A stretch of DNA of 64,000 nt from Daucus carota subsp. sativus. Taxonomy: Eukaryota > Streptophyta > Magnoliopsida > Apiales > Apiaceae. The stretch covers positions 5,034,779-5,098,778 of the forward strand of contig NC_030383.2 in NCBI RefSeq assembly GCF_001625215.2. Reading direction: 5' to 3'. Shown here in pieces: positions 24,127 through 57,219 of the stretch. Made by a program: the position numbers and the translations under genes. Under the pieces are notes generated by a model, which saw nothing but the letters and a program-made list of their open reading frames with translations, ran no database searches and was not told where the DNA came from. The first letter of the stretch is position 1. The number at the start of each line of letters is the position of its first letter.

Positions 24127-24547
24127 TTATTTATATATATATATATTATATATATGTGTGTATATATGTATATTATTTAATGTATTTTTCTAAAGAGTGT
24201 GAAAAAAATTTAAAACGTATGGTCAAATCATCTGTTTGCAATTATGATTTTTTTGAAAGTGTGCATCATCTGTTTGCAATTATGAGCTCGTTTAAAGTCA
24301 TGCAATTATGTGTTTTTAAACAGTGTGCAATAGCTTTTTCCGTATTGTCACATCCTCACATTTAACACATAGTGCAGCATGCAATAATATCAATGGATTT
24401 ATGCAGTAGCTTGTTCAGAGAATCATTCATTACTTTATTGCTCATTGATAGATTGACTGCATACCAATAAGTGGACACAAAAATTGCATGCACTATTGAA
24501 GCACAGTGGTTAACTTTGAAATTCGTCCTTAAAAGCTGAAGCATTTG
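23680..24547 (+). repeat. Direct duplication of about 320 bp upstream of the transposase
   Basis: Copy 1 (about 23680-23999) and copy 2 (about 24228-24547) share nearly the same sequence, from TTTGCAATTATGATTTTT to GAAGCATTTG. A highly AT-rich segment with a long TA run (24060-24180) separates them. They lie between the left TIR and the transposase start, so they may hold its promoter. Confidence 0.85.
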
Positions 24548-24654
24548 TGGTTGCCTATCCACAAAACCATCATCACTTGAAAAAACCTCATTGGCAAGCT
24601 ATCAGAAAACCAAAACCACCAAAAGCAAACCACTCCAAAAAAACCAAAACAAAG

Positions 24655-27511
24655 ATGGACGGTTACGTAAACGTCAATTTCTTCTGGGGAGGTGAAATCA
24701 TAAAACAAGATAACGATGTTCTCTACACCTTAGATCCGAAAGAAATGATGTATGTGAAATTGAGCAGCTCACTTGAAGAACTACGAGATATGGTGTTCGG
24801 GTTGATGCATATAAGTAGGCATCATTGGGATGTCAAGCTTAGTGTGAAATATCCTCGAATCGGGGTTAGTAACCTCGTTTCGGGGTTCTTTGTGAAGTCT
24901 GTTAAATCGGACGACGATGTTCGTAGGATGTTAAGTATCCCCGAGAGATTTCACTTGGGTGGAGACGTATCATTGTTTATCGAGGCCGAGAGTATTGCTC
25001 AACCCAGCCAACACTATGGAGGCGAGTATGGGGGGAACTATGGACAAACCGGACAAACCGCTGCAGGTGGCCAAGTTTCAAATTATGTTGAAAACTACGG
25101 TGGGAGTTTTGGAGGCGATTATGGGGGAAACTATGGACAAAGCCAGGGCATGCAAGGGTGGTCTAGCGGCTACAACTACGGGACGATTGGAGAGTATGGT
25201 GGTGGCTCGAGTAATACGGGTCGTTTTGTTGTTGAAGAGGTTGTGGACGAGGACGATTTGAGTGGTAGACAGCCATCACCGGCTCGTCAAACCCCGAAAA
25301 GAGGTGCAGCTATAGCTCTTGCACTGGAGAACCAGGAGGATGATGAAGAGTATGGCTCGGAAAGAGCCATAAGCAGCAGTGACGATTCGGAGTGGAATCT
25401 ATCACAGGAGGATGTTCCGGAAAGTGAAGATTTTTCGGAGGTTGATTCCGATGAAGAAAGAGAGGGAAACATGCACTTGCAAACACAGGCATTGTCTATT
25501 CATGAACCTAGAGCTGCATGGTTTGGATCCCAGGATTACGAGCCTGTGATTGTGTCCAACAAGGACGCAGTTATGTCACTCGGGTTTGATCCCGCCAACG
25601 ATGAGTTGACCGAAGGAGCTCTATTTGCTACCAAGGAAGTGCTCATAGCTGCTGTGAAACATGCACACATAAGTACAGATCGAAATTTCATCGTGGAGAA
25701 AAGCTCCACGCAAGTCTACAAAGTTAAATGTGTGGTTTCAAACTGCAAGTGGAAGCTAAGGGCCGCGAAGAAGAAGTCCCACGGCCTTTTTCAAATAACT
25801 AAATGTCCAGAGATTCACACATGCCTACTGGATAGACCCACGCAGGACCACCGCAAAATTTCAGCAAAAATGATTGGCTATGTGGTTGCTCCCTACGTAA
25901 GTCCTACAACCTTGGATATCATTATATGTCTAAATATTATCGTTTATTATTCATCGTTAATGTTAATATATTTTGTTTCAACAGATCTCCCAGACCCCTC
26001 AATTGAAGGTAAGCAACATCATCACAATGGTCAATGATGAGTACCACCATTTGGTTAGTTACTTGAAAGCATGGAGGGGGAAGATGGCCGCCATGGAAAG
26101 CGTTTATGGAAGCTGGAAGACAACCTACAACGAGCTCCCTCGGTTCCTTAATGTCATGGCCAGTACAAATGTCGGAAGTATAGTTGTGGTTGAGGTTGTT
26201 CCACATCATAAAGAGAGGGGTACATCGACATTTGTTCGTGCATTTTGGTGCCTAAAAGCAATGATTGATGGTTGGCAGTATGCACGGCCAGTTATTTCCA
26301 TTGATGGTACATTTCTTAAGGGAAAGTATAATGGGAAATTGCTGGTCGCGGTGGGAGTCGACTCTAATAACCACCAATATCCCATATGCTTCGCCCTTGT
26401 TGATGAGGAAACAACTGAAAATTGGTCTTGGTTTCTACGTCTTTTACGTAGACATGTATGCCGAGATAGATTGGGGGTTTGTATTAAATCTGACCGTGCG
26501 ACGGGGATCCTTGCTGCAATGAATGACGAAGCGAGTGGTTTTACCCCGCCGATGGGCTATCACAGATTCTGCCTCCATCATGTTAGGAGCAACTTCTCCA
26601 AGGCATTCCCGGGAAAGGAGCTTAAAATGTTAATGTGGCTAGCCGGCAATATGCCACAGATTAGGAAATATGATGCCTACATGAAGAAGATTGGAGAGCT
26701 TTCGCCTCAAGGCTTGAGGTGGTTGCTAGGGATAAGTCCAGCCCTCTGGACTATTTGTCATGACACAGGCCACGCTCGTTTCGGCCAAGCTACCACAAAC
26801 ATCACGGAGAGCTTTAATGGTAACGTGCGCGTGGCTCGGCACCTACCTGTGACCGCAATGATTGAATTCATGTTTTATAAAACTGTTAGGACGGTCAATA
26901 AGGAGAGGAACGCAGTGCTTGAGGGCATTGGGGAGGGTCATGAACTTTGTCTAAGGACGAGAAATAAGTTGGAGAAGATTGCATCCAAAGCTAACACACA
27001 CCGGGTCGAGACATTTAATAGAGGAACCGGTTTGTTCTCCGTAAAGACGCAAAGGTACATGGTAAAAGGGTGCAATAAGGGCGGGAACACGCAGGTGGTT
27101 GACATAACTCAGCGTACATGCACTTGCGGGAAATGGGCTTGCCACCGCCTACCGTGTTCACATTTGATTGCTGCTTGCAACCACAATCACTTAAACTGGA
27201 AACAGTGGATTGGCCCCTTCCACTACAACTCTACTTTGTTGAAATTGTGGGAGCCAATGATATATCCATTACCAGCAACTGGGTATTGGGATATTGATTT
27301 GCCAGTGCAATGGAGAATGTTTGGAACTGTGGTACCGAACGAGGCCTTGCGAAAGAGAAGGCGTAAACGAGGAGAAAGGGGTCAATCCGTCAGAATACGC
27401 ACGGAGATGGACAGTTCCCGTACAAGTCACAAATGTGGCCGCTGCAAGCAAGAAGGACACACTAGACGTAGTAAAAGGTGTCCATTGTACAATGTTGACC
27501 CTACTGTGTAA
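24655..27511 (+). CDS. Mutator-like transposase (mudrA type), complete, two exons
   Basis: Exon 1 is 24655-25896 and exon 2 is 25985-27511, joined in phase 0 across an 88-bp GT-AG intron, for 922 residues. An in-frame ATG at 24547 could add 36 residues; I prefer MDGYVNV because it starts the PB1-like N-terminal domain. A Gly/Tyr/Gln-rich linker (YGGEYGGNYGQ) and an acidic region follow. Next come the MuDR DNA-binding domain (ALFATKEVLIAAVKHAH, with the CVVSNCKW and IHTC metal ligands) and the DDE core: first Asp in SIDGTFLKGKY, second in IKSDRATG, the CLHHV motif, and Glu in TNITESFN. A SWIM zinc finger (CTCGKW...PCSHL) and a CCHC knuckle (CGRCKQEGHTRRSKRCP) end the protein. No frame damage is visible. 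It catalyses cut-and-paste transposition. Confidence 0.92.
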
Positions 27512-30604: not shown

Positions 30605-33408
30605 ATGGCGCTAGTTTTTTCTCGCAACTATACCGTATTAATATTACTATCGATTTTCTTATTCGTCTCGTTAGATATCAATGGCGTGGAATCAACCCAC
30701 CGAGTTTTTCTAGAATTTCAATCTGTTCCTGCTGTAAATGTCAAGCTAGTTCACAAACCTGCTTACCATTTTCAACCTAAGAAGCATTGGATCAACGGTA
30801 TGTTATGTATATAATTAAACACGCTCATGCACGTACATAGCACGTAATTCACATGGAGCGGTGAATCACTAGTTGCCAACAATTGCATAACTTTGGCACG
30901 TAATTCATATGGAGTGGTGAATCAGTAGTTGTCAACAATTGCATAATTAAACACACTCTCAAATGCACCGTAGTTTCTGACAAGGTTTGAATCATCGACA
31001 TCAACCTTATGTGAAGTGGAGAAAAAGTATAATCTGATCATGCATCGATTTAGCAAACAAGTGCACAGTTCGCTCCTAGCATTGTAGTCCTGTTCTGTAA
31101 TCTGCATTGTTCTCTGTTTTTGTTGTTTTATAATCTGCATTTATTTTTTCTCTTCATGAGCTACTAATGAAGAACTCAAGCTCCAGATGATCTAATATAT
31201 CTTGTTCTCTCTTGCATGGTCAATGCTGGTGAATAAACAAAACAAACCACAGATCCTAATGGTAAGCCATATATATTAATATCTTGATTAACAAATTCTG
31301 AAAATTTAAAATTTCGATTAGATGATAAATAGCATGTTTGTCGATTCTGTTTGGACAATTACAGGACCAATGTTCTACAAAGGCTATTACCATCTTTTCT
31401 ATCAGTACAATCCCCAAGGTGCTGTCTGGGGGAACATTGTATGGGCTCACTCTGTTTCAAAGGACTTGATCAATTGGCTTGCACTCGAAACAGCAATTTC
31501 CCCTTCGAAGCCCTTTGACAAATACGGATGCTGGTCAGGATCAGCCACAATTCTTCCTGGTAACAAACCTATCATACTCTACACTGGTATAGTATCCCCT
31601 GAACCTGAGTCCACCCAAGTCCAAAACTATGCTGTTCCTGCTAATTATTCCGATCCATTTCTTCGTGAATGGATAAAACCGGACAACAATCCATTGGTTA
31701 CAGCCCATAGTGAGAACTCGTCTGCCTTTCGTGATCCTACTACTGCATGGTTTGATGGTGGCCACTGGAAAATGCTGGTAGGTAGCAGGAGAAAACATAG
31801 AGGAATGGCCTATTTGTATCGAAGCAGAGATTTCATGAATTGGGCAAAGTCCCCACATCCTTTGCATTCTAAGGCCAACACAGGAATGTGGGAATGTCCT
31901 GATTTTTATCCAGTGGCTCAAGAAAGCACGAAAGGGCTGGATACGTCTGAAAGAGGGGAGAATATTAAGCATGTGTTGAAGGTTAGTCTGGATGAAACTA
32001 GATATGAGTACTACACGATTGGAACGTATGATCGTGTCAAGGATAGGTATGTTCCGGATAATACATCAGTTGATGGTTGGGCAGGATTGAGATATGATTA
32101 TGGTAACTTTTATGCTTCAAAAACTTTCTTTGATCCTCTCAAGAATCGAAGAATTTTGTGGGGTTGGGCTAATGAGTCTGATACTCGGGATGATGATGTT
32201 AAAAAGGGTTGGGCTGGAGTTCAGGTAATTTGTACTATTAGAAGATAAAGATCCTCTAGGTTACAATGTTATAGAACTTGCAATTTTTCTGTTTTGAGAT
32301 TAACTGAGTTCTGATTACATGCATATTCTTTTAGCTAATTCCGAGGACAGTTTTGCTGGATCCAAGTGGAAGGCAACTGATCCAGTGGCCAATCGAAGAA
32401 CTAGAACAACTGCGCGGAGCAAGAGTACAGATGGGAAAACAAAAAATCAACGAGGGAGATCATGTCGAAGTAAAAGGAATAACAGCTGCACAGGTTTGTT
32501 CATGTTCCAAAAATGACATTAAACTTGGTGCATCATTTTCATAATGCTTCCAACAATTTGTGTCTGTTCAGGCAGATGTTGATGCAACGTTCTCATTTGA
32601 GAGCTTAGATAAAGCTGAGTCATTCGATCCTAAATGGATGAACTTAGACGCTCAAGACGTCTGCAACTTGATGGGATCAACTGTTATTGGAGGTCTCGGA
32701 CCATTCGGGCTACTGACTTTGGCTTCAGAGAAGCTCGAAGAATATACTCCTGTCTTCTTTCGGATATTCAAGACTCAAGAGAAGCACAAAGTTCTGATGT
32801 GTTCTGATGCAAAACGGTATACTTGTTTATCAGTATTCCAGAGTAAAGATGTGAACTGGTCACTCCTAAACATATTAATATGGCTATTGATTCACCAAGG
32901 CTATATGTTTGTTCAACAGGTCCTCTTTGGCTAAAGGATTGTACATGCCATCATTTGCAGGATATGTAGATGTGGATTTAACTGACAATAAGATTTCACT
33001 CAGAAGTCTGGTGAGCCCTGTTTTTTGAAGTTCACTTCTGCATGTGTTATATACATTATTCTAGAAGTCGATGATTCCGTAGCTCACCGAACCGATTAAA
33101 TTTCCAATTATTCAATTAATCATCCGATTAATCCTTGTTCCATGTCACCGATTAAGTCCGATTTCCGTTACAACACTCTATATATAATGTAAATTATGTT
33201 TACTGTTATGTTTGTTTTGATGCAGATTGACAATTCAGTGGTGGAAAGTTTTGGGGCTCGAGGAAAAACATGCATATCATCCAGGGTTTATCCAACACTA
33301 GCAATTTCTAAGAATGCTCATTTATTTGTATTCAACAATGGAACAGAGCCCATCACTGTAGATAGCTTGGATGCTTGGAGCATGAACCCTCCTTCAAAGA
33401 TGAACTAA
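30605..33408 (+). CDS. Cell-wall invertase (beta-fructofuranosidase, GH32), complete, seven exons
   Basis: Exons are 30605-30797, 31253-31261, 31365-32224, 32335-32493, 32572-32816, 32920-33010 and 33226-33408, giving 1,740 nt and 579 residues. Exon 2 is the 9-nt mini-exon that completes the catalytic WINDPNG motif, whose Asp is the nucleophile. A signal peptide ([20 protein letters not shown]) leads. Other family marks are [26 protein letters not shown] (transition-state stabiliser) and MWECPDF, where Glu is the acid/base and Pro rather than Val marks the cell-wall type. The C-terminal beta-sandwich has [14 protein letters not shown] and [12 protein letters not shown]. The enzyme splits apoplastic sucrose into glucose and fructose for sink tissues. 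All catalytic residues are intact. The gene is tail to tail with ORANGE, 336 bp from stop to stop. Confidence 0.96.
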
Positions 33409-43747: not shown

Positions 43748-46700
43748 TCACCACTCATCATCAAGGCTCGCACGATGAAAACACAAAACGGTGCAAACAA
43801 AAATGAGAAATGACGTGAATTCGATTAACATAGCCCCAGTTTCAATTAACCCTGCATGCCTAAGAATAATGGGAATAGCCATACTTCCCACTGTCGATGC
43901 CCCTGTTAAAAACTTGGCTGCATCAACCCATCTGCCATAACATAATCCAACAAAGAGAAGAAAATTACATCACTCAGACATGTTGATAAGATAAGAGAAA
44001 AGACTTATATGAACTGCAAGTTAACATCTACCAATCCTGCCAGACATTTTTTTGGGTTACACTAGACAACTCTTGGATCACTACATGACGACAGATGAAA
44101 TAATAGGATTAGCATATACTGAAACTCTGATATAATTGGGATCAATCACACATCTAGAAACATACACCAAAAATGCAAATTTCACCATCTCGTTGCACAG
44201 AAGCCAATGTCCATGCGAGACATATTAAAGGGCAAACGGAGGCGCTGTATACACTAAAGTCACTAATATGATCAGTAAATGACACCACCCTCGAAATAAA
44301 TGGATTTTTTTACGAGCTTCCATTGTGTCGTCGGAGATGGAGGAATTGACTTGTTAGCTATCTATATCCAACACACATTTCAGAAAAGTTCACACACTTC
44401 TTTACTCTTGTTACTAAATCATGATCTCATATTTTAACAAAATAATAATCTTCGACTGACATATATATATATATATATATATATGATAGAAATATACTAG
44501 ATTTCACATCTTTAAAGAATATAATTTGTCAATGAAGCAAAAGTATTGAAAGACTTACCCCCCACCATCTCGACTAGTTAGAAATTGAGTGGACCCACCC
44601 CCAAAGAACATACAAGGCATTGGCACCAAAATATACACTAGAGCTGCAATGAGACATCAATAAGCATCATTAATCCTTTCACACATTCTCAGTTGTAAGT
44701 GCAACAAAAACAACATTCGATAACTACACTTACCAGATAGCATTGGCCACCAGTTGCTGTACAATGCACAAGCCTGTAAGATTCAAAAAAGGGGCTCATA
44801 AATATGAATGCATTATAATATTAAGTCTTCAAAACTACAATAGTTGAAGATCAGAGGACCTGAAGTTCCTATAGTACAGCTTAAAAGCAATTTCTGTTAG
44901 GAGTTGTCCCACATCGGTTGTGGGAGGGGCAGAAAGCTAGAATATAAGCCGCTAGAACAACTCCAATTAGAACGAGGCCTTTTGGGTAGTGCCCAAAAAC
45001 AAAGCCGTGCGGGCTAGGACCAAAGCGGGCAATATCGTACTATTGTGGAGTTAGGCTCGCTTAGCAGGCCCAACAAGTGGTATCAGAGCGAGGTTAGAAC
45101 GGTCGGTAACAATCTCAAGTGGGCTCCAGAATGGGCCTGGGAAGAGGCAGATGGGCTACCCAGAATGGGCTTAAGGATAAAGGTAGGTGGGTCATTCCAG
45201 TTTGGGCCCAGGGGGAGCGAGATAGCCAGACGGACTTCCAGTATGGGTTTAAGGGGGAGCCCGATCGCACAACTGGAGGCAGAATTCGACAGGTGTCGAG
45301 CCCGATGTGTGAAGGGGGAGATTGTTAGGAGTTGTCCCACATCGGTTGTGGGAGGGGCAGAAAGCTAGAATATAAGCCGCCAGAACAACTCCAATTAGAA
45401 CGAGGCCTTTTGGGTAGTGCCCAAAAACAAAGCCGTGCGGGCTAGGACCAAAGCGGACAATATCGTACTATTGTAGAGTTAGGCTTGCTTAGCAGGCCCA
45501 ACAATTTCTCCCAGCTCATACACGTTATTTTATTTTTTACGTTATTTTATTTTTTCTTAAAATTTTCTGTCAAAAAAAAAAAAAATTCTTAAAATTTGGG
45601 AGGGAGGAGGAAGATCAGTGCTTTGCTTTGTATTACTTTTTCCTTTTTCTCTATAACCCTACCATATATGGGGACTTGCATTTTGGTGGACGAACTCCTA
45701 CACCTTCCTACTGGTTTTACTCTTGTAACAGTCTCGGTAATTAAAAATGCTTTGTTATTTACCAAGAAGATCTTTCCCCAAGCATACCACCTCACCCTTT
45801 TTACACGAGGAAGCCTTGTCAAAGACAAAAGGGTGGGCATATGTTTTCAAATAACAAAAACAAATGATTTGTTCATTGACATGGAAAAAAGAGTTACCAA
45901 CTGTATACAGCAAGCATGGTGTGTCTGTATGGGGGAATGATAATAGGATCTAGAACAAATATGGTAGGGCAGCTTAGCAAATCAAGTAATAAAAATAATG
46001 CATTATTATGGCGGAAAACGGGCATGCCATTACTTGTTTCAACATTAGGAAATGAGATTTGGACTAAAACCAGGTTGAGGGCATATTTAGTCAATAGCTG
46101 GAATGTTCCAAGCTGAAGTTCTCCAATTCACAAATCAATAGCATTCTTGATAACTAAGTTCTTAAGGTAATAGAAAATACCCAGTCATTCTGTTGACTAA
46201 CTTCTAAAGAACATGAACTTTTACAACTGAAAATCAATAAGCTCATTCCTTTGTTGGAGAGGGAAGCAGTAGCATTAGAATAACTATATTCTTTTTCATG
46301 AAAGAACCACAGTTGTCGCAGTGTCAAATTTAATTACCAAATGGAAATAAAGAGACATGCACCTGCCACTATGCTAAAAACTTACCAATATCTGCAGGAG
46401 TATGCTGGATGAAAACATAAAAGCAAGTCCAGCCAGCCTGCATAAAAGTACTATTCAGAGTTCATGATAAAACTAAAGCAGAAAGAACCAACCAATCTAG
46501 GATAACAAACTTACACTGTAGGTGGCAACGGAGCATCATCGAGGAGTTACACAAACCAACACACCAGGACATAAGATAGTCAGTATCAAATATGCACAAT
46601 AAATTTGTCAAAAATATTAAATACACAGTCATGTACCAGTACCAATAATGCAACTATGTCTAACACCATAAGTACAGAAGTTAATAACCTAAACTGGTAG

Positions 46701-47941
46701 TGTCCAACATTAAAAAATAACCAGTTTGTATATAACTACTTAGACTAGGTTGTATGAGAAGCTAACAAGATTAAAGCATATTAACATCGGTACATTCCTT
46801 TTGATTTATCCTAATTTACAAGAACTTTATTGTAAACTTGCTTGGATGTTTTAAATTATGTTCATAAGAAATGAACGAAAACAGACGTTGCGCACACCAT
46901 TAAGATTAGTTCAGATAATCAAGTCAGCATTGTAACCTCATGCGATATGAGAAACTTCCTTGGCCTAAGTAACATTATTGCTTCATCTTTATGCATGAAC
47001 TGTCATGACTAGTCAAAAAGTGCATTTGTACACTTGTGTTTGTCTTACAAATCTTTTCAAATAAAGGCACTTCCTAAGGATACTAATTAGTCATCCAATA
47101 TAGATGGTGTTATAAATCAAACCTTATAAGAAGGTAAAAAACTCCATCCAGAAAACTTTCAAACTGAGCAACCCTAAACAAGCTTCTACATTCTTAGAGC
47201 TACCAGCTGGTGCACTTAAAATCACAACCGTAACCGGTAACCCAAAAGATGATGCATGAAAAACATGACATCATAACATTTCCAGTTGACTATGCAAAGG
47301 CACATGCACGGATCACTGTTTTGCAAGTGTTAAACCGGATTTATCATTATATATGTTCCAAGTCAATTTATCACTAAATACCGACTCCTATTTGACCAAG
47401 CACCGAGAACCACAAGGCCCACACCCTAAAGAGCTTGTACTTCAGCAAAAACATGGCACAATAGTATATTCCCCAATATGCAATTTACCAAATTATGCTG
47501 CTATCACATAACAAAACAGTAAATACTGTATGGTGAGCAGAAAACTTGTTATCAATCACGGTAATTCTCAATTCTGATATCCTGCATCACCCATAACTTA
47601 TACGCACAGAGTAATGTTATCAAACCCCAATTACAGTAACTTTATCTCGACCCCAACCCAACTGCAAAACTCAAATTCTAGGGATAAAGAAGTACTCAAA
47701 AACCCTATTGTAGAGCTCAATTGAGCCTCAATCAAACATCAAACAAACATGATGACATCAATTTACTGGTACACCACTTTTATTACTACTATTCTAACAT
47801 CAAATTACCCAATATTCTTCAAATTAATAACTAGGCAGAATTATCTTGATACTAAAATTAAATACAACAGAATTACACAAGAGTTCAAGTCATAACATAT
47901 ACATGTGTATATCAATTAGTACCTTCGATAGTCATCGCCAT
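43748..47941 (-). CDS. VPS55: VPS55 / LEPROT-family membrane protein, complete, six exons including one of a single nucleotide
   Basis: Minus-strand exons are 47923-47941, 46515 (one nucleotide), 46386-46437, 44734-44773, 44559-44643 and 43748-43931, in all 381 nt and 126 residues. The protein reads MAMTIEVLAG, LAFMFSSSILLQILACALYS, NWWPMLSALVYILVPMPCMF, FGGGSTQFLTSRDGGGW, KFLTGASTVGSMAIPIIL, and ends with HRASLDDEW. Four membrane segments fit the Vps55/LEPROT family, which acts with Vps68-type partners in endosome-to-vacuole transport. Directly joining 47923 to 46437 would shift the frame. Inserting the T at 46515, which sits between a CCTACAG acceptor and a GTAAGT donor, restores it and gives an N-terminus of family length. 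The intron between exons 3 and 4 carries a TRIM. Confidence 0.88.
44895..45503 (+). mobile_element. TRIM (terminal-repeat retrotransposon in miniature, 609 bp) in a VPS55 intron
   Basis: Two direct LTRs of 181 bp (44895-45075 and 45323-45503) start TGTTAGGAGTTGTCCCACAT and end GCAGGCCCAACA. They differ at about four sites, all transitions. The 5-bp flanks ATTTC (44890-44894 and 45504-45508) are a target duplication. Just inside the left LTR, TGGTATCAGAGC at 45078 matches the usual primer site for initiator methionine tRNA, and a purine run (GAAGGGGGAGA) precedes the right LTR. There is no real coding capacity; the open frame at 45045-45368 is a by-product. It depends on other elements for enzymes. 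Confidence 0.95.
46515..46515 (-). other. VPS55: Single-nucleotide exon of VPS55
   Basis: On the minus strand the context is GCCACCTACAG-T-GTAAGTTTG. The roughly 90 bp before this acceptor contain no other AG, as is usual between a branch point and a true acceptor. The T joins G from exon 1 and G from exon 3 to make a Val codon. The following intron (46438-46514) is 77 bp with GTAAGT and GCAG ends. Confidence 0.75.
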
Positions 47942-49364: not shown

Positions 49365-52300
49365 ATGGCGGCGGCGTTGATGATGAAAAGACTGTCGGCA
49401 TCGGGCAGATTAAAGAACACAGGCACTTTTATTACATACTTAAACCCTAACTCAAGCAACGCCCCCCTTTTCATTTCTCGCCGAGGTATTGCTTCCAAGC
49501 TTTTCGTCGGAGGTACCTATTCATTTCTTTAACTCCTTATGTTAATTAATTTGTACGATGTTTAACACCATAGTTATTACAAAACTAAAACGACTTCTTT
49601 AAATTGTTTTAATTTTATCTAAAGCACTTTAAATGTTTTCTTTTCAAATTTATATATTTAAATGTTTTAATTGTTTTAATTTTATCTAAAGCACTTTCCT
49701 TGTTCACAATTTTAATGTTTTCTTTTCAAATTTAAATATTGTAATTGTTGTAGGGAGTCACAGTGAAAATCACAGCAACAATGTATAGAGCAGTTATATT
49801 ATATAAACAAGAGTAGGCCAACGAAACCACAACAATATAGCATGCACGAAGATCGTATATACAATAATCAGTGACTGATAAATTACGAGAAAAGAAGAGA
49901 AAGGCGCACCTTACACCGTCACTAGAATTAGTATAAAGAACAGCTGAGTCGCCTAGCCCTTCGATGAAGACTAGACTGTTCTTGAAGTGATTATTGCCCC
50001 ACTACGCTGTGATGGGTAGTCGCAATATCGCTCCCAGGATAAAACAGCACAGACCGAACCGCTCACAGACACGAGTACGATCAACAGCGATCAACACCTC
50101 AGTTCGCCCGAGAACATTATGTATATGTGTATATATCGGAGCAGAGGGTGAGAGAGTAAGAGAGAAGAATGAGAATGGTGTTTTTTTTTCCCGTGCTCCA
50201 ACTCAAGTGTCGAGGCTCACTATTTATAGTGAGACCAAGCCACCAACACACTGTCCAGATTCATCTGTCCAGGTTCAATGAATCTGTATCTGTCAGACAT
50301 TCTGACCAGATTCATTTGTCCAGGTTCAATGAATCTGTATCTGTCAGACATTCTGACCAGATTCATTTGTCCAGGTTCAATGAATCTGTATCTGTCAGAT
50401 ATACTGACCAGATTCATTTGTCCAGGTTCAATGAATCAGTATCTGTCAGATATATTGACCAGATTCATTTGTCCAGGTTCAATGAATCTGTATCTATCAG
50501 ATATACTGACCAGATTCATTTGTCCAGATTAAATGAATCACATTCTCATTTCAAGCTCTTTCAAGCCACTGTATTCAACTCTATTTCTCAATGGATTTCA
50601 CTAAGAAAATGTCCCGGAAATTACATCAAGAACATATTAAAAAAATATGCTTTAAACTTTCCATTTTCTAACAATCCCCCACAAATCCATATAGATATGC
50701 ATATTAGTCCTCATCATGACTTGTTTTTCAGAGTAGGTACCCTTCCGGGTTTGAACCCTCCTAAGTCCCCTACTTCGATGGCTACCGGATATAGATGGAT
50801 TGTTTCACCTTGAATCTCTATCCGTTGGGTGTAACCACACTCCATAGACGACGACAAGTCAAAGGCTATGGTGCCGATCTACGGCTTTGAGACATTAATG
50901 GTCGTGTCTCGATCCTGTTCGTCGAATGTTTCAAGGAATAACCCTTTCCTCTAATTGCGACCTCACAATTACATTCGCTTAGCTGGGCATCTCCAGAGAT
51001 GTACTGCAACCATCTCGTCAAATGACTTGACCCCATTCAGAGTTCTAAAACTCTTGCTATACTTGCAGTGTCAGTACCTTTTAGGTTTGCAGGGGATAGA
51101 CTCAGATGCATGAGTATCTACATTGTAGTTAAAGGTACTACCGATCCACCCTTACAGCTTGTTTACCACATTGAATACACTTTGAGGGATCTCCTCTCAG
51201 ATGTATTGGGTTCCCGCTGTAGATGAATCATGATGGGTTATCAGTCCCATCCCCAACCTTGACTTAAGGACAACAGCATGCTCAAGCCCTTTAGTCAGTG
51301 GATCAGCTATGTTATCTTGAGTTCCAATGAACTCAATAGCAATAGTCCGATCAGACACCAAACCCCTTATAGACTTAAGTCTAACTTGGATGTGTCTCTT
51401 TGTTTTAGCATTATACTTGACACTTCTGATCTTGTCGATAGTTGTACGGCTATCACAATGAACAGAAATTGCCGGTAGCGGACGACTTACTACAGGTAAC
51501 ACAGACATGAGTCCATGCAACCATTCAGCCTCCGTACCCGTGGCATCCAATGCACACAACTCGGCCTCAAACGTAGACCGAGTTACTATAGTCTGTCTAG
51601 TCGACTTCCAGGATACTGCTCCACCCGCAAGGGTAAACAGATATCCAGTCACTCCATTGGAACCAGACTTCTTAGCTATCCAACTTGCATCACTATATCC
51701 CTCAAGCACACTCGGATATCTCCTGTAGTGCAACCCAAGATATATGGTGCCTTTCAGATATCTAAGTACTCTATCTAGAGCATCCCAATGAGTTCTGTTT
51801 GGACAGCTTGTATATCTTGCTAACTTAGACACAGAATATGTTATATCTGGTCTAGTACCATTAGCAAGATATTGCAAACTACCAATAATCTGAGAATATC
51901 TTAACTGAGACACAGGTACACCTGAAGCATTCTTGATAAGAGCAACTTTTGGATCATATGGTGTACTAGCAATTCTACAATTTGAATAACCATACTTCTC
52001 AAGTATAGATTTCTCTATATAATGAGATTGTGACAAGGTTATTCCCTCAGTTGACTGAGTCAACTTGAGTCCAAGAATCACATTCGCCTCACCCATGTCC
52101 TTCATTTCAAAGTGTTTTTTCAAGAAATTCTTTGTCTCGTTAATAATCTCAATATTGGTTCCAAACAGTAGTATATCATCCACATACAAGCACAACACAA
52201 TATGTTCATTTCCTTTAACCTTATAGTAGACACACTTGTCATTATCATTAACTATAAAATCAAAAGTCAAAACAGTGTCATCAAACTTTTTGTGCCAGTC

Positions 52301-55300
52301 TCTAGGTGCTTGTTTCAAGCCGTAGATGGATTTGACTAACTTACATACTTTGCTCTCATTGCCAGATGCAACAAATCCCTCAGGCTGATCCATATAAATC
52401 TCTTCTTCAAGATCACCATGAAGAAAAGCTGTCTTTACATCCATTTGATGGATGATAAGACCATGTACGGAAGCCAATGCTACAAGCATTCGGATCGTTG
52501 TCAATCTTGCAACAGGAGAGTATGTATCGAAGTAGTCAATACCTTCTCTTTGCCTAAAACCCTTAGCAACCAATCTGGCTTTATACTTATCTATTGAGCC
52601 ATCTGGTTTCATCTTCCTTTTGAAGATCCACCTACATCCTATAGTAGAACACCCAGGAGGGAGGTCAACCAACTCCCATGTTCCGTTAGAAACAATAGAG
52701 TCAATTTCACTCTTCACAGCGCCTTTCCAGTGCCTAGATTCCGAAGAATCCATGGCTTGTCGGAAAGTCAAAGGTTCGTCTTCGACATTGTAAGTGATAA
52801 AATCACTTCCAAAGTCCTTAACTACCTTTGCACGCTTGCTCCTTCTAGGTTCCTCAACTTCATTAGGAGTAGAGCTACTAGTAGGATCTGCCCCCACATT
52901 TGTCATCTTTTCCACATGATCGGGAATAGAACTAGATGTGTGAGTAGGATCAACACTAGAAGAACTTTGAGGTATACCAGTCTTCATAGGGAAGACATCC
53001 TCAAAGAATGTTGCATCACGAAACTCAACTATCGTGTTTGCCACTATACCATCTATGTCAGATTTTAATACTAAAAATCTCATAGCTGTAGTGGTTTCGA
53101 GATAGCCCAGAAAGATACAATCAACAGTTTTCGGCCCTAGTTTCTTTCTCTTCTGTTCAGGGACAAGTACCTTAGCAAGGCACCCCCACACACGAAGATA
53201 CTTTAGACTAGTTTTCCTGCCTTTCCATAATTCGTAAGGTGTCTTGTCCATATGTTTTAGAGGGACTCTATTCAGAATATGGCAAGCCGTATTCAGAGCC
53301 TCCCCCCACATGTACTTAGGCAACCCCGAATTAATCAACATACTGTTAATCATATCTTTAAAAGTTCTGTTCTTTCGTTCTGCCACCCCATTAGACTCAG
53401 GTGTATATGGTGGAGTCACCTCATGAATTATACCATTGCTCTTGCAAAATTCATTAAAGGTGTTTCCCGTATATTCACCACCTCTATCAGATCTCAAACG
53501 TTTAAGTACTTTACCAGTTTGTGTTTCAACTTCAGTTTTAAATCTAATGAATTTTTCAAGTGCTTCATCTTTATGTTTAAGCAAATAAACATAACAATAT
53601 CTACTACAATCATCTATAAAGGTAATGAAATATCTACAGTGTTCCTTAGTCAACACACCACCAAATTCACATATGTCTGAGTGTACTAAATCTAACAAGT
53701 CAGAATCCCTAACAACACTATGAAAAGGTTTCCTTGTTAGTTTAGCTGTCACACATACTTGACATTTAGTTTTCTTATCAATGGCATGCTTTGGAATCAA
53801 CTCTAAGTTCATCATATTCTTTAGAGCACCAAAATTTAAATGACCAAGCCTAGAGTGCCACAGATCGGATGATTCAATATTATTAACAGAAGGAGAAGCA
53901 ATATCATTAATAAAACCGCCTAAAACAGGCTCCACATTTATTAAAAACAAGCCGTCTGACAAGTAGCCCTTGCCAAAAAACACACCAGTCTGAGTAATAA
54001 CTACTTTATTACACTTTAAAGAAAGTTCAAAGCCATTTTTAACTAAACAACTTCCACTAATAATATTTCTACGAATCTCGGGAACATGATGAACTCTAGT
54101 AAGGGATAGAACACGCCCTGAAGCAAACTTCAGGTCCACGTTTCCTATTCCACAAACTTGAGCCGCACTAGCATTCCCCATCGTCACTGTCATCCCATGA
54201 GCCTGTTGATAAGATACAAACAGAGTAATATCAGCACAAATGTGCACATTAGCTCCCGTATCAATCAACCACTCATTAGACAGATAAGTGGAAAATAGTT
54301 CAGGGTTGTACTTAACATACCCGTCATTGGTTTCAGAAGCAACAGCCTCACCAACAACCATGTTAAGCACAGGCCCATCAGTGGTTCCAAGCACAGTATT
54401 TGCTTGTGCTACCACCTCAGCTTTCTTTGCTTTCTTTACAGGACAGTCCTTACTCCAATGACCAACCTGTCCACAAGACCAACATGGTTTGTTGGCCTTT
54501 GATTTCTTAGCCTTGCCCTTGTCAGTTTTGGGCTTAGTGTTCACCTTCTTAGCGACAGACTTTCTTTTCTGTCCCACAGTCACTACATTGACCTTCGAGC
54601 TACCAGATTCAGTTGGCATCACATGTCCCTGTTTGGACTTGTGCTGCTCCTGCACAGAGATGTCCAGCATCAGGCTAGTCCAAGTGATCTCTCCCTTCTG
54701 CCTTTTCAGGGAGAGTGCAAACTCTTCCCAAGACTTAGGGAGTTTTTCAATCACAGACATAACCAAAAACTTTTCAGGAAGGTCCATTCCGGACTCCTTC
54801 AAAGCATGCACCAACGTCTCAAACTCATGCACCTGCTCAGTCATGGATTTTGTATCCACCAGTTTGAAGTCCAGGAACTTAGCCACAGAATACTTTTCCA
54901 ACCCTTGCGAGTCAGTATTGTGTGTCTGATCAAGTTTCTCCCACAAGGTCTTAGCAGTGTAGGAGTCAGATGAGTAAACATCGAACAGAATGTTCGTTAA
55001 GGCTGCTAGAATAGCAGCCCTAGCCACCCCATCCTTTTCCTCCCACATAGCATAGGCCTTAAGGGTTTCAGCCTTTTCCTGTACCACAACTGGTTTCTCA
55101 TACTGCAACACCGGCCATAGACCCTTAACCGTAAGCCACAGTTTCATCTTTTTCTGCCAGCGAGAAAAAGAAACTCCCCCACCGAATTTATCAGGAATAC
55201 CTGATAAATCAATGGGCTGTGGAAAACGATACGTAGTCCAATCGATGTTACTAGTAACACCAGACCCAGAACCAGCACCACCACCAACAACAGAATCCGC

Positions 55301-57219
55301 AATCTCATTAACCATCTTGCTTACTACACAATATAACAGATAATCACTTCAAGATTGTAGGGAGTCACAGTGAAAATCACAGCAACAATGTATAGAGCAG
55401 TTATATTATATAAACAAGAGTAGGCCAACGAAACCACAACAATATAGCATGCACGAAGATCGTATATACAATAATCAGTGACTGATAAATTACGAGAAAA
55501 GAAGAGAAAGGCGCACCTTACACCGTCACTAGAATTAGTATAAAGAACAGCTGAGTCGCCTAGCCCTTCGATGAAGACTAGACTGTTCTTGAAGTGATTA
55601 TTGCCCCACTACGCTGTGATGGGTAGTCGCAATATCGCTCCCAGGATAAAACAGCACAGACCGAACCGCTCACAGACACGAGTACGATCAACAGCGATCA
55701 ACACCTCAGTTCGCCCGAGAACATTATGTATATGTGTATATATCGGAGCAGAGGGTGAGAGAGTAAGAGAGAAGAATGAGAATGGTGTTTTTTTTTCCCG
55801 TGCTCCAACTCAAGTGTCGAGGCTCACTATTTATAGTGAGACCAAGCCACCAACACACTGTCCAGATTCATCTGTCCAGGTTCAATGAATCTGTATCTGT
55901 CAGACATTCTGACCAGATTCATTTGTCCAGGTTCAATGAATCTGTATCTGTCAGACATTCTGACCAGATTCATTTGTCCAGGTTCAATGAATCTGTATCT
56001 GTCAGATATACTGACCAGATTCATTTGTCCAGGTTCAATGAATCAGTATCTGTCAGATATATTGACCAGATTCATTTGTCCAGGTTCAATGAATCTGTAT
56101 CTATCAGATATACTGACCAGATTCATTTGTCCAGATTAAATGAATCACATTCTCATTTCAAGCTCTTTCAAGCCACTGTATTCAACTCTATTTCTCAATG
56201 GATTTCACTAAGAAAATGTCCCGGAAATTACATCAAGAACATATTAAAAAAATATGCTTTAAACTTTCCATTTTCTAACAATTGTGAATTGAGTTCGTTA
56301 GAATTTGAGTGTGTTGGTTGCACAATTTTGAGGCTGGTCATGGTTATTACCGAAGAGTGTTTCGTTGGCTTGTGGTTTCTTCTACATTGTGTTGTTAGTT
56401 TGTTAGATGAAACAACTAACAAGTTGTTGCTTATTCCACAGTTAAAACTTACTCAGTTGTATATCTTGAATAGGTTGCGAGTAGATATAGAACATGGTCA
56501 GCAAACTACGGGGATTGTTATGTTCTATAAAATTACGAGATACTCATGTCCAATCACTATAGCGCGATTTAGAAGTGTATGATAATAAAGGCATTTTATA
56601 TTGTCTCATCATGCGTAAATTATGCTTAATTAAAAACCTGTTTTCTTTTTTGATTCGCTAATTCACAAGTTGTAAAGGATATGCACGTTATTATGCATCT
56701 TCATTCGTTATGGTTAATTAGAGTTTCAGTAGCTTTTTACTTTGTGGATGGGCTTCATGTAGATCTACTTTTTCTTTCAGGACTATCATTCTATACCACA
56801 GACAACGGATTATCAGAGGCATTTTCTCAGTATGGTCAAGTAGTTGAAGGTGCGCTAAGCTTTAGTATTACTTGTGTGCATTTTTTTGTCTAAAAAGTGT
56901 ATTTTGGTGACATTTTTTGCTTTACATATCAGCTAAAGTTGTAATTGATAGAGTTTCTGACCGATCAAAGGGCTTTGGATTTGTTACGTTTGCATCAGAG
57001 GATGAAGCTGACAAAGCTGTTACAGAAATGAATGGGAAGGTTGTGATTACATTTGCCTCCAGATTTAAGTTTCCTATTTAAACAGGACTGACACATTATC
57101 ACTTGCAGCAATTGAATGGGCGTGTTATTTTTGTTGACCATGCAAAACCCAGAGCTCGTTTTGATGATGGCGGGATGCCAATAGCTAGGGGACCCCCTGA
57201 ACCAGCAGCAAACCAGTGA
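49365..57219 (+). CDS. Mitochondrial-type small RRM RNA-binding protein, complete, four exons
   Basis: Exons are 49365-49512, 56781-56849, 56933-57039 and 57109-57219 (435 nt, 144 residues). The first 42 residues ([18 protein letters not shown], ending ISRRGIAS) are basic and Ser-rich, typical of a mitochondrial presequence. A single RRM follows: RNP2 in KLFVGGLSFY, RNP1 in KGFGFVTF, then [20 protein letters not shown]. The tail is short ([13 protein letters not shown]) and lacks a Gly-rich domain. Such organelle RRM proteins take part in RNA editing, splicing or stability in mitochondria; which of these applies cannot be told here. Intron 1 is 7,268 bp because it holds a 6.5-kb Copia element in antisense orientation; without it the intron would be about 730 bp. 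The splice sites are intact, so the gene may still be expressed. Confidence 0.88.
49602..49745. repeat. 67-bp tandem duplication in RRM intron 1
   Basis: AATTGTTTTAATTTTATCTAAAGCACTTT occurs at 49602 and 49669, each followed by AATGTTTTCTTTTCAAATTT at slightly different distances. It lies directly before the Copia insertion site. Confidence 0.7.
50216..50233 (-). promoter_or_regulatory. TATA box of the LTR inside a palindrome
   Basis: CTCACTAT-AA-ATAGTGAG is a perfect 8-bp-arm palindrome that contains TATAAATA. The same sequence occurs at 55823-55840 in the 5' LTR. Confidence 0.7.
50262..50545. repeat. 51-bp tandem repeats in the U3 of the LTR
   Basis: About five and a half units of 51 bp, each with GATTCATTTGTCCAGGTTCA, ATGAATC and TCTGTCAGA, lie directly upstream (in element sense) of the TATA box. 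GATTCAT and ATGAATC pair as an inverted repeat within each unit, and TGTCAGACA is a palindrome in some units. An identical array is at 55869-56152. The period is divisible by three, which opens spurious frames. Confidence 0.92.
51197..55315 (-). CDS. Copia gag-pol polyprotein, intact (1,372 aa)
   Basis: One uninterrupted frame covers all domains in Copia order. Gag starts [10 protein letters not shown], with [11 protein letters not shown] and the [15 protein letters not shown] zinc knuckle (about residues 280-295). The protease active site is [11 protein letters not shown]. Integrase has HSRLGHL...CQVCVTAK (HHCC), then Asp in [11 protein letters not shown], Asp in [11 protein letters not shown], and Glu in [12 protein letters not shown]. 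Reverse transcriptase has [26 protein letters not shown] and the catalytic YVDDILLFG. RNase H has [11 protein letters not shown] and [12 protein letters not shown], and the family-typical ending HIQVR...ADPLTKGL. No stop or frameshift is present, so it should be competent. Start ATG is at 55313-55315, about 40 bp inside the 5' LTR; about 520 bp separate the stop from the 3' LTR. Confidence 0.97.
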   Translation of the reverse strand: MVNEIADSVVGGGAGSGSGVTSNIDWTTYRFPQPIDLSGIPDKFGGGVSFSRWQKKMKLWLTVKGLWPVLQYEKPVVVQEKAETLKAYAMWEEKDGVARAAILAALTNILFDVYSSDSYTAKTLWEKLDQTHNTDSQGLEKYSVAKFLDFKLVDTKSMTEQVHEFETLVHALKESGMDLPEKFLVMSVIEKLPKSWEEFALSLKRQKGEITWTSLMLDISVQEQHKSKQGHVMPTESGSSKVNVVTVGQKRKSVAKKVNTKPKTDKGKAKKSKANKPCWSCGQVGHWSKDCPVKKAKKAEVVAQANTVLGTTDGPVLNMVVGEAVASETNDGYVKYNPELFSTYLSNEWLIDTGANVHICADITLFVSYQQAHGMTVTMGNASAAQVCGIGNVDLKFASGRVLSLTRVHHVPEIRRNIISGSCLVKNGFELSLKCNKVVITQTGVFFGKGYLSDGLFLINVEPVLGGFINDIASPSVNNIESSDLWHSRLGHLNFGALKNMMNLELIPKHAIDKKTKCQVCVTAKLTRKPFHSVVRDSDLLDLVHSDICEFGGVLTKEHCRYFITFIDDCSRYCYVYLLKHKDEALEKFIRFKTEVETQTGKVLKRLRSDRGGEYTGNTFNEFCKSNGIIHEVTPPYTPESNGVAERKNRTFKDMINSMLINSGLPKYMWGEALNTACHILNRVPLKHMDKTPYELWKGRKTSLKYLRVWGCLAKVLVPEQKRKKLGPKTVDCIFLGYLETTTAMRFLVLKSDIDGIVANTIVEFRDATFFEDVFPMKTGIPQSSSSVDPTHTSSSIPDHVEKMTNVGADPTSSSTPNEVEEPRRSKRAKVVKDFGSDFITYNVEDEPLTFRQAMDSSESRHWKGAVKSEIDSIVSNGTWELVDLPPGCSTIGCRWIFKRKMKPDGSIDKYKARLVAKGFRQREGIDYFDTYSPVARLTTIRMLVALASVHGLIIHQMDVKTAFLHGDLEEEIYMDQPEGFVASGNESKVCKLVKSIYGLKQAPRDWHKKFDDTVLTFDFIVNDNDKCVYYKVKGNEHIVLCLYVDDILLFGTNIEIINETKNFLKKHFEMKDMGEANVILGLKLTQSTEGITLSQSHYIEKSILEKYGYSNCRIASTPYDPKVALIKNASGVPVSQLRYSQIIGSLQYLANGTRPDITYSVSKLARYTSCPNRTHWDALDRVLRYLKGTIYLGLHYRRYPSVLEGYSDASWIAKKSGSNGVTGYLFTLAGGAVSWKSTRQTIVTRSTFEAELCALDATGTEAEWLHGLMSVLPVVSRPLPAISVHCDSRTTIDKIRSVKYNAKTKRHIQVRLKSIRGLVSDRTIAIEFIGTQDNIADPLTKGLEHAVVLKSRLGMGLITHHDSSTAGTQYI
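55341..55355 (-). promoter_or_regulatory. Priming-site position of the Copia element, complementary to its own leader
   Basis: In element sense the bases after the 5' LTR read A, then TCTTGAAGTGATTAT. This does not match the usual initiator methionine tRNA site (TGGTATCAGAGC). The exact reverse complement lies within R/U5 of the same LTR, around 55587-55601, so the leader can pair with the priming site over 15 nt. Confidence 0.7.
55356..56280 (-). repeat. 5' LTR of the Copia element
   Basis: 925 bp. In sense orientation it has U3 with five to six 51-bp repeats (about 56132 down to 55860), then TATAAATA at 55828-55835, giving a predicted start of transcription near 55800. About 445 bp of R and U5 follow. 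Confidence 0.95.

Follow-up and report, generated by a model that had tools for sequence, protein, structure and literature searches.

A VPS55 gene of carrot very likely carries the one-base exon already published for plant VPS55-1

How is the start of a protein assembled when the first coding exon of its gene does not share a reading frame with the exons downstream? The question is raised by a VPS55 gene in carrot, Daucus carota subsp. sativus, located on the minus strand of a 64,000-nucleotide stretch of DNA (hereafter the window; contig NC_030383.2, positions 5,034,779 to 5,098,778). A preliminary description of this locus held that the 19-nt exon 1 and the exon at 46437-46386 are out of frame with each other, and joining the two directly bears this out. 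In our model the gene comprises six exons, the second of which is a single T at position 46515. The coding part of exon 1, ATGGCGATGACTATCGAAG (47941-47923, 19 nt), extends from the ATG to a split Val codon and ends at the donor AAG/GTACTA. Intron 1 (46516..47922, 1407 nt) closes with CCTACAG, and its last 138 bases contain no AG except that of the acceptor. The T would supply the middle base of the Val-7 codon (G-T-G), as a counterpart of the published VPS55-1 microexon, and intron 2 (46438..46514, 77 nt) follows at once, beginning with GTAAGT and ending with GCAG; the immediate context thus reads CCACCTACAG/T/GTAAGTTTGT. Exon 3 (46437-46386, 52 nt) holds Met-14, the start that remains if the T is missed, and is succeeded by exon 4 (44773-44734, 40 nt), exon 5 (44643-44559, 85 nt), and the coding part of exon 6 (43931-43748, 184 nt including the stop), all on the minus strand. 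All five introns start with GT and end with AG, and four of the five donors read GTAAGT, the exception being the GTACTA of exon 1. The claim that the T lies between a good acceptor and a good donor therefore holds, and so does the claim that no other AG occurs in the preceding 90 bp, since the nearest further AG 5' of the acceptor begins 140 bases before the T.

Inclusion of the T has a clear effect on the reading frame. With it, the coding sequence measures 381 nt, or 127 codons with the stop, exactly as had been described, and encodes 126 amino acids. This product matches the Pfam Vps55 family (PF04133) over profile positions 2-115 with a score of 114.2 bits (E 4.2e-33), above the curated cut-off of 24.6 bits. 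When the T is skipped, the frame is reduced to 38 amino acids and its product has no Pfam Vps55 match; retention of intron 1 stops the frame after 9 amino acids and retention of intron 2 after 7. By joining exon 1 to exon 3 and completing Val-7, the T would yield the 126-residue Vps55 protein and leave its first hydrophobic segment intact. No relatives of this protein were found in prokaryote genome contigs (35 pattern matches) or in viral contigs (4 pattern matches), where plants are not expected, and none among solved structures up to an E value of 0.1.

The sequence by itself is suggestive; we accept the one-base exon because the published VPS55 case settles the matter. A microexon 1 nt long was described by Yu et al. 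(2022) for flowering-plant VPS55-1 and also in other land plants, and the one in the Arabidopsis gene AT3G11530 was confirmed by RT-PCR (PMC8831610). Arabidopsis VPS55 made without the microexon loses 13 N-terminal residues, and its predicted helices drop from four to three (PMC8831610). The carrot gene belongs to the same family as AT3G11530, has its 1-nt exon likewise near the start, and would also lose 13 residues if the exon were missed, 13 being the number that stand before Met-14 in the 126-residue protein. The GTAAGT donor of the carrot exon agrees with the published GTRAGT, of which the GTAAGT form occurs in ferns and flowering plants (PMC8831610). In gene family, exon size, place near the start, number of residues lost and donor, no difference emerged between the carrot exon and the published one. 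The same gene with an exon of the same size, a 1-bp microexon of cluster 2, is reported in the Zygnema genome paper, the host in that case being a streptophyte alga (PMC11096116).

We conclude that the carrot gene is very likely a plant VPS55 of the VPS55-1 kind carrying the published microexon, with the T joined between exons 1 and 3 so as to complete Val-7 and the two flanking introns most likely removed in succession. The frame problem and the splice sites are read directly from the carrot DNA, and conservation and the spliced product in other plants come from Yu et al. (PMC8831610); that carrot includes the T, that its gene belongs with VPS55-1, and in which order its introns leave are inferred. 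The proposal that a 1-nt exon completes the start of VPS55 agrees both with the gene structure in the DNA and with the case confirmed by RT-PCR (PMC8831610). What does not stand is the novelty implied in the preliminary description, which cited APC11 as the sole precedent: the one-base exon of VPS55 itself is already known, having been reported in 2022 (PMC8831610), and carrot is a further instance of it. The APC11 exon of Guo and Liu (2015) is also a one-base constitutive plant exon, in a gene unrelated to VPS55 (PMC4674806). Another coding exon of 1 nt, again the middle base of a codon, is known from the fungal P450 gene CYP621A of Fusarium (PMC12940212); in the text of that paper as available, APC11 is the sole precedent named and VPS55 is absent. 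The MEPDB paper, as far as its main text goes, likewise mentions APC11 and lacks VPS55 (PMC12409088). With carrot, the VPS55 one-base exon becomes readable in the DNA of a further genome, and the VPS55 gene model of this species is worth checking. Splicing of a one-base exon is still mechanistically striking, even though the case has been published.

How might a single base be spliced at all? Guo and Liu considered exon definition very unlikely for one base and suggested that the two introns may go successively (PMC4674806), and according to Yu et al. the introns 5' of plant microexons tend toward later removal (PMC8831610). Among 69 microexons, 16 had reads for splicing of the downstream intron alone but none for the upstream intron alone, four showed the reverse, and 49 had both kinds, with downstream reads outnumbering upstream ones in 32 of these 49 (PMC8831610). 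Given these counts and the sizes of the carrot introns, 77 nt downstream versus 1407 nt upstream, removal of the downstream intron first is the likeliest order at this locus. The introns flanking the T would be removed successively by intron definition, the 77-nt intron usually going first; the T would then stand at the head of an exon of 53 nt, and the 1407-nt intron 1 would be spliced out only afterwards. No 20-nt stretch with more than 80% T occurs in any of the five VPS55 introns, so one published type of enhancer is absent; this T-rich type was found in only 14.1% of such introns (PMC8831610).

Another reading is mixed splicing, in which mRNA containing the T would be accompanied by a share that keeps an intron and encodes a shorter protein. 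This reading is compatible with our own, and we regard it as unlikely. VPS55 transcripts that keep an intron and give a shorter protein have been published for spikemoss, hornwort, and liverwort (PMC8831610). In carrot, keeping intron 1 while removing intron 2 gives the VPS55 frame 10 open codons ahead of the V of VLAGL, but this stretch has no in-frame ATG and hence Met-14 would be the only possible start. The carrot donor also speaks against mixed splicing, since GTAAGT is the form reported from ferns and from flowering plants, in which a second VPS55 copy without the microexon exists (PMC8831610). Less probable again, indeed improbable in our view, is that the one-base exon works as a switch, with delayed removal of intron 1 producing mRNAs whose translation starts at Met-14 and whose protein lacks the first membrane segment. 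If that were true, one gene would supply both forms that in flowering plants are reportedly split between two gene copies.

Another alternative dispenses with the one-base exon, taking Met-14 in exon 3 as the regular start of translation and the upstream ATG as noncoding, as in gene models that omit the exon. In its favour, the form starting at Met-14 retains a Pfam Vps55 score of 108.7 bits over profile positions 8-115, and the N-terminus contributes a small gain of 5.5 bits. Nevertheless, six profile positions are lost, and the first peak in hydropathy, which covers residues 7-25 (2.04), is absent from the Met-14 form at cut-offs of 1.6 and 1.3; a weak peak at 14-32 (1.19) is left when the cut-off is lowered to 1.0. 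Four clean helices were not seen even in the full protein by this simple hydropathy scan. A start at Met-14 also leaves the well-placed, good YAG-T-GTAAGT unexplained. Finally, VPS55 models without the 1-nt exon are regarded as misannotation in the work that saw the exon by RT-PCR in Arabidopsis (PMC8831610). We therefore consider translation from Met-14 without a one-base exon highly improbable, and return to the T at 46515 as the means of restoring the frame.

How much of the argument can the splice-site motif itself bear? Taken alone, it is weak evidence and at chance level: the window has two copies of YAG-N-GTRAGT where 1.31 would be expected, a number attained in 40 of 100 shuffles. Its weight comes from its place, because the interval requires 1 mod 3 extra bases, contains a single GTRAGT (at 46514), and offers in the T the best of 48 frame-restoring candidates. 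For the 1485 bases separating exons 1 and 3 we generated dinucleotide-preserving shuffles (n=2000). YAG-N-GTRAGT appeared in 67 of the 2000 and its GTAAGT version in 35, whereas a frame-restoring microexon of 1-51 nt with YAG and GTRAGT was present in 503. Since shuffled intervals so often hold such a microexon, sequence alone would not decide; on that basis the one-base exon would be likely, short of proof. In the real interval, a search for microexons of 1-51 nt flanked on each side by an intron of 60 nt or more gave 48 frame-restoring candidates, five of them 1 nt long (25 of the 48 were listed, plus all five of 1 nt), and the T at 46515 is the sole one that has a YAG acceptor together with a GTRAGT donor. 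That a longer microexon or another first exon restores the frame and the T is there by chance can be dismissed as scarcely credible: 47 further candidates exist, as do 45 other first exons that run from an ATG to a donor in less than 400 nt and meet exon 3 in frame without a microexon, but none of the 47 combines a YAG acceptor with a GTRAGT donor, and the donors of the best 15 of the 45 first exons match GTAAGT at never more than 4 of 6 bases.

A second known plant microexon lies elsewhere in the window. The GH32 invertase gene at 30605-32248 (plus strand) carries the 9-nt microexon ATCCTAATG at 31253-31261, between exon 1, which ends at 30797, and exon 3, which starts at 31365; its inclusion yields WINDPNGPMFYKG, and this microexon is among those named by Yu et al. 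(PMC8831610). The window thus contains two published plant microexons, one of 1 nt in VPS55 and one of 9 nt in the invertase gene. An Rfam scan of the window at gathering scores returned no matches. Further genes encode PMR5/PC-esterase and PADRE proteins, and MuDR/MULE-type transposase domains occur in two overlapping frames at 24520-27511 (plus strand). A Copia-type LTR retrotransposon occupies 49748-56282, with a single long open frame at 51197-55348 (minus strand) and 928-base direct repeats that contain internal repeats; as these direct repeats are 100% identical, a recent insertion is suggested. Within VPS55 intron 3, two 182-nt direct repeats with 4 mismatches, 428 bases apart, span 44895-45504. 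The repeats start with TGTTAG, and TGGTATCAGAGC follows the first of them. The arrangement resembles that of a TRIM-type miniature LTR element antisense to VPS55, with TGGTATCAGAGC presumably serving as its primer site.
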